From Baffinella frigidus (Eukaryota; Cryptophyceae; Cryptomonadales; Baffinellaceae): a DNA stretch of 28,557 nucleotides. The notes under the pieces were generated by a model that worked only from the letters and a program-made list of their open reading frames with translations, made no database searches and was not told where the DNA came from. The stretch is from assembly GCA_026770585.1 (NCBI GenBank), contig MU646374.1:45119-73675 (forward strand). The letters run 5' to 3'. Below, one piece after another: positions 509-28,459 of the stretch (position 1 is its first letter; each line of letters starts with the position of its first letter). Position numbers and translations under genes: made by a program.

Positions 509-608
509 CGGGCCAGAGCGGAGGTCGATGATAACCAGACAGTTGTTGTGGATCAGCCCCTCGCATACCCCACCGAACCCCGCATCGTGCGCCCGGTACG
601 GCATCGTC
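509..608 (-). CDS. WD40 gene exon 31 (last in window)
   Basis: One nucleotide completes a glycine codon, then [17 protein letters not shown] and [16 protein letters not shown]. Acceptor TTTGCAG, donor [18 protein letters not shown] resembles a WD40 last strand. Two acceptor-end copies lie upstream (750-801 and 985-1037) and two donor-end copies downstream (about 244-290 and 48-95). Later exons lie outside the window. Confidence 0.75.

Positions 609-28459: not shown

Follow-up and report, generated by a model that had tools for sequence, protein, structure and literature searches.

In the cryptophyte alga Baffinella frigidus, the introns of a long WD40-repeat gene have, with a probability that we put at about two in three, grown by recurrent local tandem duplication, often with filler DNA and under purifying selection. 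This account rests on one gene, which runs through the window, i.e. the whole stretch of 28,557 nucleotides that was analysed. Exon-end copying in the gene is confirmed as a real observation: truncated copies of exons lie in the introns, those of 5' ends upstream and those of 3' ends downstream of the exon from which they derive.

In a protein search, the joined translation of the minus-strand exons matched two deposited proteins of B. frigidus that are named as WD40-repeat proteins, P0001 and P0006 (99.7% identity over 292 aligned residues and 96.5% over 404, respectively). The gene thus encodes a WD40 protein of considerable length (Pfam WD40, E=6.3e-76). With exon borders placed by hand on the basis of splice sites and reading frame, the gene comprises 31 exons on the minus strand, from 28459 to 509, with an exonic total of 2298 nt; exons are on average about 74 nt and introns about 855 nt long. 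An AG acceptor is present at all 31 exons and a GT donor at 30, exon 23 having a GC donor. The reading frame is intact through exons 1-14 and through exons 15-31, and its sole break falls on the intron with an N-run (16504-17089), so that at least one exon is probably missing there. Homologous proteins provide an independent check of the borders, as they read uninterrupted through 29 of the 30 exon junctions: P0124 spans junctions 1-29 and P0002 junctions 4-28, each with one additional residue at junction 23, and P0122 spans junctions 1-7; no other additional residues occur. Junction 14 is the one at which sequence is missing.

As P0001 starts upstream of exon 1 and P0006 extends past exon 31, the gene is longer than the window at either end. 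Two homologues, P0124 and P0002, each span both of these deposited models, which divide one gene in two and include decoy exon fragments. P0006 has 41 surplus residues at junction 21, 23 at junction 30 and smaller insertions at junctions 17, 22 and 28, and P0001 contains repeated peptides that are decoy pieces of exons. A peptide encoded upstream of exon 1 is repeated in P0001 (KYYFPDNFASSQLW... and KYYFPDNFAASLLW...) and single-copy in P0122, as judged by eye, and the pattern of border copies therefore seems to continue upstream of exon 1.

Copies were sought by blastn, using each exon with 20 nt per side as a query against the window (E<=0.01, at least 15 exon nt) and removing matches that overlap the query exon. 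This uniform search gave 69 matches, 62 of them copies of exon ends (border copies). All 29 copies of 5' ends lie upstream of their own exon, and all 33 copies of 3' ends lie downstream. The other matches are one whole exon (exon 14), four internal copies in sense orientation, two of which are cross-matches between exons 10 and 11, and two inverted internal copies. The intron adjoining the own exon harbors 61 of the 62 border copies, if the stretch from exon 31 to the window end is taken as the 3' side of that exon. As the copies belong to the 5' sides of 14 exons and the 3' sides of 17 exons, with up to five on a single side (5' side of exon 22), they do not represent 62 independent events. 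Most border copies (54/62) retain the splice dinucleotide, with AG present in 25/29 5' copies and GT in 29/33 3' copies. All positions are given in Table 1.

Table 1. Exons of the WD40-repeat gene and copies of their ends. Exons were defined by hand-set splice sites and frame, and copies by the uniform blastn search of the window, unless another basis is stated.
Feature	Position	Strand	Basis
WD40-repeat gene, Baffinella frigidus, 31 exons in window	509-28459	-	protein matches, splice sites and frame
Exon 1	28405-28459	-	
3' copy, exon 1, downstream	28195-28257	-	
Exon 2	27792-27866	-	
3' copy, exon 2	27379-27415	-	
Exon 3	26480-26542	-	
5' copy, exon 3, upstream	26684-26744	-	
3' copy, exon 3	25450-25518	-	
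Exon 4	24938-25000	-	
5' copy, exon 4, located upstream of exon 3 (exception of the earlier note)	26879-26915	-	
5' copy, exon 4	25097-25133	-	
5' copy, exon 4	25190-25225	-	
Exon 5	24170-24236	-	
5' border copy, exon 5: 6 exon nt plus intron, within 150-base tandem duplication	24387-24416	-	self-comparison, 30-base probe
Exon 6	23608-23700	-	
5' copy, exon 6	23789-23818	-	
Exon 7; border matches telomere-like only	23250-23303	-	
Exon 8; border matches telomere-like only	22953-23008	-	
Exon 9	22411-22488	-	
Short 5' border copy, exon 9: 12 exon nt plus intron, outside the 62	22649-22684	-	self-comparison
3' copy, exon 9	22179-22251	-	
Exon 10	21182-21298	-	
5' copy, exon 10	21459-21515	-	
5' copy, exon 10	21616-21663	-	
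5' copy, exon 10	21757-21792	-	
5' copy, exon 10	21825-21849	-	
3' copy, exon 10, 191-base tandem unit	20975-21086	-	
3' copy, exon 10, 191-base tandem unit	20784-20895	-	
Exon 11	20389-20502	-	
3' copy, exon 11	20295-20322	-	
Exon 12	19635-19679	-	
5' copy, exon 12	19773-19824	-	
Exon 13	18756-18836	-	
3' copy, exon 13	18559-18626	-	
3' copy, exon 13, without donor	18534-18557	-	
3' copy, exon 13	18345-18407	-	
3' copy, exon 13, without donor	18319-18342	-	
Exon 14	17486-17538	-	
Full copy of exon 14, sole whole-exon copy found	17237-17322	-	
Exon 15	16349-16417	-	
3' copy, exon 15	16179-16219	-	
Exon 16	15826-15878	-	
Fair 3' border copy, exon 16, 24/30	15684-15713	-	30-base probe
Exon 17	15186-15255	-	
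Weak, uncertain 3' border match, exon 17, 18/30	15078-15107	-	30-base probe
Exon 18; no border copy found	14279-14335	-	
Exon 19	13899-13994	-	
3' copy, exon 19	13612-13695	-	
3' copy, exon 19	13335-13418	-	
3' copy, exon 19	13221-13261	-	
Exon 20	12184-12271	-	
5' copy, exon 20	12427-12453	-	
3' copy, exon 20	11981-12026	-	
Exon 21	10621-10673	-	
5' copy, exon 21; 256-base unit, 99.6% alike	10900-10949	-	
5' copy, exon 21	11296-11344	-	
3' copy, exon 21	10449-10483	-	
Exon 22	9017-9138	-	
5' copy, exon 22	9215-9287	-	
5' copy, exon 22	9366-9443	-	
5' copy, exon 22	9500-9585	-	
5' copy, exon 22	9667-9719	-	
5' copy, exon 22	9803-9864	-	
3' copy, exon 22	8833-8905	-	
3' copy, exon 22	8696-8775	-	
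3' copy, exon 22	8458-8501	-	
3' copy, exon 22	8262-8339	-	
Exon 23, GC donor	7379-7451	-	
5' copy, exon 23	7558-7610	-	
5' copy, exon 23	7814-7852	-	
5' copy, exon 23	7893-7916	-	
Exon 24; border matches telomere-like only	7128-7180	-	
Exon 25	6506-6623	-	
5' copy, exon 25	6873-6929	-	
3' copy, exon 25	6306-6393	-	
3' copy, exon 25	6151-6200	-	
3' copy, exon 25	5978-6072	-	
Exon 26; sole border match weak and on the wrong side	5527-5574	-	
Exon 27	4803-4883	-	
3' copy, exon 27	4363-4406	-	
3' copy, exon 27	4149-4215	-	
3' copy, exon 27	4012-4042	-	
Exon 28	3490-3567	-	
5' copy, exon 28	3684-3722	-	
3' copy, exon 28	3127-3208	-	
Exon 29	2442-2513	-	
5' copy, exon 29	2596-2622	-	
5' copy, exon 29	2776-2812	-	
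5' copy, exon 29	2977-3019	-	
3' copy, exon 29	2293-2332	-	
3' copy, exon 29	2163-2206	-	
3' copy, exon 29	2055-2097	-	
Exon 30	1779-1831	-	
5' copy, exon 30	1942-2004	-	
Exon 31	509-608	-	
5' copy, exon 31	744-806	-	
5' copy, exon 31	977-1052	-	
3' copy, exon 31	237-295	-	
3' copy, exon 31	42-94	-	

The uniform search detected an adjacent sense copy for 23 of the 31 exons. Probes of 30 bases revealed a clear polar copy for exon 5 (29/30), a fair one for exon 16 (24/30) and weak matches at two places for exon 17 (18-20/30); for exon 26, a match of the same weak level is on the wrong side (19/30, 5151-5180), and the probe matches of exons 7, 8 and 24 fall in telomere-like sequence. Nearby copies are firm for 24 exons and reach up to 26 with the weaker cases; an earlier note on this DNA had given approximately 26 of 31 exons. 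The note had also named one case that breaks the order (26853-26925, here 26879-26927). In this case, the adjacency of copy and exon is indeed broken, but the polarity is kept, as the copy lies upstream of exon 4.

How special are exon ends in this respect? As a first control, random segments of unmasked intron, matched to the exons in length, were drawn from the same gene in 40 sets of 31. Their copies have no polarity (pooled 45%, per set 0.24-0.87), in contrast to the 62/62 of the exons, and 16.9 of 31 segments per set have local copies, versus 23 of 31 exons. Within 1500 nt, 31 segments have about 49 copies (29.7 border, 8.1 full and 11.4 internal) and the exons 66 (61 border, 1 full and 4 internal sense), with one exon border copy at 1878 nt dropped from this count. 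When the search was rerun with long extension as a second control, the exons had 60 border copies, 60/60 of them polar, and the segments 19.9 (sd 5.3, max 34). Of the unmasked intron windows of 20 nt, 37% are covered over their whole length by local duplications, versus 32/62 exon ends; at identities of at least 90% this coverage is 20% versus 24/62, and at identities of at least 95% it is 8% versus 12/62. The splice junctions themselves are not enriched inside local duplications when all identities are counted together (19/62 versus an intron background of 19.4), but they are enriched at higher cut-offs, with 18 versus 13.3, 16 versus 8.5, 7 versus 2.6 and 4 versus 1.0 at identities of at least 80, 85, 90 and 95%, respectively. 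Compared with matched intron, exon ends show a roughly 1.4- to 3-fold excess of copies, depending on the measure, and the slower change of exons accounts for this excess only in part.

The main difference between exons and segments is the scarcity of full and internal copies together with the perfect polarity, which is what selection for intact exons would yield. Local duplication is general across the introns of this gene and appears to be filtered by the need for intact exons: as intron segments are copied too, only without polarity, the requirement for intact exons would explain the polarity as well as the missing full and internal classes. The order of upstream 5' and downstream 3' copies that the earlier note had described holds throughout, and tandem duplication, to which it was ascribed, is the likely cause. 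That exon borders as such are duplicated is only partly supported, since random intron segments are copied as well, while the higher number of border copies at exon ends speaks in favor of it.

Mechanistically, small local tandem duplications would occur throughout the introns, by slippage, end joining or template switching. Some would be simple head-to-tail units, while in others unrelated filler would separate the copies. Wherever a duplicated unit ends inside an exon, the full exon would survive beside a truncated copy that has one exon end and its splice site, and by simple geometry a unit running from intron into exon would leave a 5'-end copy upstream, and a unit running from exon into intron a 3'-end copy downstream. 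Duplications confined to an exon, or those that give the gene a further complete exon, would be harmful to the mRNA and would mostly be lost, presumably by purifying selection, and the decoy splice sites in the remaining copies are presumably largely ignored by splicing. A copy-and-paste of exon fragments into introns, e.g. by retro-insertion, could account for the many copies that are separated from their exon by unrelated sequence, but the polarity of 62/62 and the location of 61/62 copies in the adjoining intron argue against it as the main process, in accordance with the earlier note, and a spliced neighbor beside the copies is only weakly indicated. Such pre-intron junctions inside introns, i.e. 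a copy end followed by the start of the next exon or the mirror arrangement, were rejected as a signal (P=0.023, carried by exons 6, 19 and 22). We regard an origin of the copies by retro-insertion or copy-and-paste as extremely improbable.

The anatomy of the copies is not uniform. Repeat extents were obtained for 61/62 border copies (all but 18534-18557). Of the 61 border copies in adjoining introns, 31 match the flank of their exon over 14 nt of intron or more, and the other 30 over less. By hand count, 80% or more of the interval from copy to exon is taken up by the repeat on 10/31 sides, as plain tandem duplication would predict, and on 21/31 sides the alignment of the nearest copy covers less than 60% of this distance, with non-repeat filler in between, so that plain tandem duplication requires later insertions or filler at these sides. 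Clear tandem arrays that include exon ends have units of 191 bases (exon 10), 137 bases (exon 22), 256 bases (exon 21) and 177 bases (exon 13). In 3 of the 10 exons with both 5' and 3' copies (exons 9, 21 and 25; hand reading, with the 5' copy of exon 9 taken from the self-comparison of the window), the inner ends of the closest copy on either side join up to within 2 nt; a nested origin, with a new exon placed inside an older one, was considered for this arrangement but not adopted.

The non-homologous filler on 21/31 sides could also mean that new intron DNA was inserted directly at active splice sites or a few bases away from them, each insertion duplicating 20-100 nt of the exon end, comparable to staggered-break repair with filler. 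Introns would then grow from their ends, and older ends would be left inside. Homology breaks off no more than 7 nt from the splice site in 25/60 copies compared to 190/794 (24%) controls (P=0.005, copies being non-independent), and identity across the junction drops from about 0.9 to about 0.5 in the copies. The excess of border copies over both controls and the share of telomere-like sequence beside splice sites, 31-33% versus 11.9% in introns, are further points in favor of such targeted insertions. However, the excess of junction-ending homologies is modest and copies within one array are not independent of each other, 10/31 sides are plain tandems in which long stretches of flanking intron are shared, and an order of age with distance is absent, as the nearer copy is the more similar one in only 24/39 comparisons. 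Growth from the ends with such an age order is unsupported by these comparisons, and insertion targeted to junctions appears possible but rather unlikely to us, local tandem duplication with filler being the preferred explanation.

The introns contain telomere-like 7-base arrays, MITE-like elements and hairpins. The telomere-like sequence beside splice sites is of a degenerate CCCTAAA type on the coding strand, its share being counted over positions 6-46 nt from the sites; the opposite orientation makes up 1.3% and 0% there versus 2.7% in introns. It is found within 30 nt of 12/30 donors and 13/30 acceptors, versus 14% of random intron windows, for example at the acceptors of exons 8, 12, 15, 24 and 25 and at the donors of exons 7, 21 and 28. 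A MITE-like element, whose ends resemble CTAGCTCTGCCTCAGTC by eye, is present in both orientations at 294-410, 3211-3327, 18137-18245, 24541-24656 and 25546-25660, and at 4/5 of these places an exon-border copy, or the repeat unit to which it belongs, is no more than about 30 bases away. A near-palindromic element has two copies in inverted orientation that are 96% alike (10006-10171 and 25830-25991). Intronic inverted repeats that may form hairpins are at 1591-1764, 11416-11488, 11557-11719, 12259-12542, 14359-14545 and 14894-15036; one arm of the hairpin 12259-12542 includes the first 13 nt of exon 20 and thus is an inverted border copy. AT dinucleotide arrays (10735-10865 and 10991-11281) are located in and after the nearly identical 256-base units. 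DNA searches gave no match of positions 12000-20000 to phages and none of positions 20733-21273 to plasmids.

Do the copies have, or did they ever have, a coding function? Mismatches between copies and exons are distributed as 45/60/176 over codon positions 1/2/3, with a third-position ratio of 3.35 (bootstrap 2.2-4.4) versus a rough expectation of 1.85. This bias first suggested a coding history, i.e. that the copies once were functional exons, alleles or paralogues. Such a history was dropped as the main reading because of a three-way test at 733 sites covered by two or more copies, in which the changes unique to the closest copy are even (7/7/9) and the silent changes are on the exon side (1/3/17 changes unique to the exon). 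Changes unique to the oldest copy, a mixed class, are 12/19/41, and single-copy changes are 27/32/56, a class in which changes of the copies are mixed with exon changes that predate the youngest copy. In 25 partly overlapping alignments that extend into intron, substitutions amount to 10.5% in the exon part versus 14.6% in the intron part, which is near the ratio expected under constraint on the exon alone. The closest copies change roughly neutrally, like junk, and as 12 of the 14 indels in exon parts of copies also shift the frame, the most plausible view is that the copies have been junk ever since they arose. The single-copy changes stay unexplained, and so does the surplus of silent change on the exon side over what equal rates predict, with small numbers.

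That the copies function as alternative exons or as splicing decoys under selection is very improbable. The overall and single-copy third-position biases, the retained splice dinucleotides and the inclusion of several copies as exons in deposited gene models would agree with a function, but the even changes of the closest copies and the frame-shifting indels would not, the inner copy ends mostly do not meet a splice site (by eye), and the duplicated peptides are not present in homologous proteins at the checked junctions.

A short-read assembly might also have set haplotypes or repeat fragments side by side. The genome of Baffinella sp. CCMP2293, the assembly from which the window presumably originates, is described as a draft of 534.5 Mbp, assembled from Illumina data with AllPathsLG and made up of repeats to 41.1% (PMC9756366), and the window includes a near-identical 256-base tandem as well as an N-run. 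Doubts are strongest for this tandem, at 10644-11124. However, 60/62 border copies differ from their exon by about 2-20%, and real reads should therefore underlie them; the even distribution of the changes of the closest copies over codon positions is unlike that of second alleles; up to five 5' copies per exon fit poorly to two haplotypes; a protein resembling a second allele is absent among the best 120 of 3794 matches and 7 further matches; and a polarity without exception is hardly obtained through misjoins. An assembly artefact is therefore only a slight possibility for the pattern as a whole.

The relatives P0002, P0121, P0122 and P0124 have long uninterrupted open reading frames where Baffinella has up to 29 introns. 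P0002 is uninterrupted across 25 junctions and P0124, which could be a transcript, across 29. P0122, the closest relative found (79.5% identical), has one uninterrupted reading frame across junctions 1-7, with homology lost at junction 8, and thus is devoid of introns 1-7; a search with P0122 found no relatives in viral or prokaryote contigs. A gain of these introns in Baffinella appears more parsimonious than a loss, if P0122 is an orthologue, although it may be a paralogue. As the closest relative is without seven of the introns, intron birth may be linked to border duplication. The mechanism of birth is not visible, because the real intron ends have little flanking repeat (mean anchored score 1.75 versus 1.61 in the comparison with other exons; 30 introns, both ends, no significance computed).

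What is known about such duplications? The nearest published case that we found is the potato RdRp gene, for which one tandem duplication across the border of intron 1 and exon 2 has been described that created a new intron and added exon sequence, with support from genome and RNA reads (Ma, Lan and Niu 2016, PMC4974935); the same paper also mentions an 83-bp tandem duplication within an intron. As in potato, the unit in Baffinella comprises the 3' end of an intron and the 5' part of an exon, and provides a second ready-made acceptor beside a truncated exon copy. Unlike this single event, the Baffinella gene has copies on 31 exon sides, of 5' as well as 3' ends and with up to five per side, and these are mostly diverged and without a demonstrated effect on the mRNA. 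The difference from potato RdRp is one of scale and two-sidedness. The earlier note knew of no described intron architecture with border duplication on this scale. No paper on gene-wide exon-border copies or on Baffinella introns was found among open-access PMC titles and abstract starts (few subscription journals being covered).

The AGGT model of intron gain by tandem genomic duplication (PMC3443670) is similar in that sequence with splice motifs is tandemly duplicated within a gene, but its unit lies inside an exon and both splice sites derive from the duplicated AGGT, whereas the Baffinella copies lie across or next to a border that already exists, and none of them is seen to split an exon. 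The Rogers AGGT test, which asks whether the start of an intron is like that of the next exon or the end of an intron like that of the previous exon, gave the values of 1.75 versus 1.61 already mentioned, and later rebuilding of introns could hide a signal. Filling of staggered ends (PMC3443670) likewise leads to insertions flanked by direct repeats, but these are short and flank the whole intron, while the repeats in Baffinella have tens of bases and flank pieces inside introns. With introners (PMC9860276; Amoebophrya, PMC7789003), Baffinella shares an apparent lineage-specific increase in introns and the presence of MITE-like elements in them. Introners, as described, are multi-copy elements that themselves constitute the intron (PMC9860276), and the main text of that source mentions neither crypto- nor Baffinella or Guillardia. 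No element that spans introns was found by self-comparison within the window, only scattered shared elements.

The question of how introns grow and are gained is an old one, and few cases have been observed while in progress. The WD40 gene offers dozens of oriented duplicate pairs in which a roughly neutral copy stands beside a constrained exon, and has a relative that is without at least seven of its introns. For genomes of this kind, a caution is that automatic annotation can take decoy exon fragments into gene models, as in both deposited models. The Baffinella genome, with its 534.5 Mbp, has 6.1 times the size reported for Guillardia theta (PMC9756366). If the pattern is genome-wide, it would allow a direct test of how tandem duplication, the growth of introns and their gain are connected, and would raise the question of how the spliceosome copes with many well-formed decoy sites. 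One may speculate that intron multiplication in Baffinella feeds itself, as each border duplication would plant a splice site and thereby generate more borders, more duplications and more introns, without any transposon. This is doubtful at present, but if true, genes that are nearly intron-free in close relatives would have been shattered into exons of about 74 nt and introns of about 855 nt. The exon-end copies of this Arctic single-celled alga give a view of the ways in which introns can grow and decoy splice sites can accumulate.
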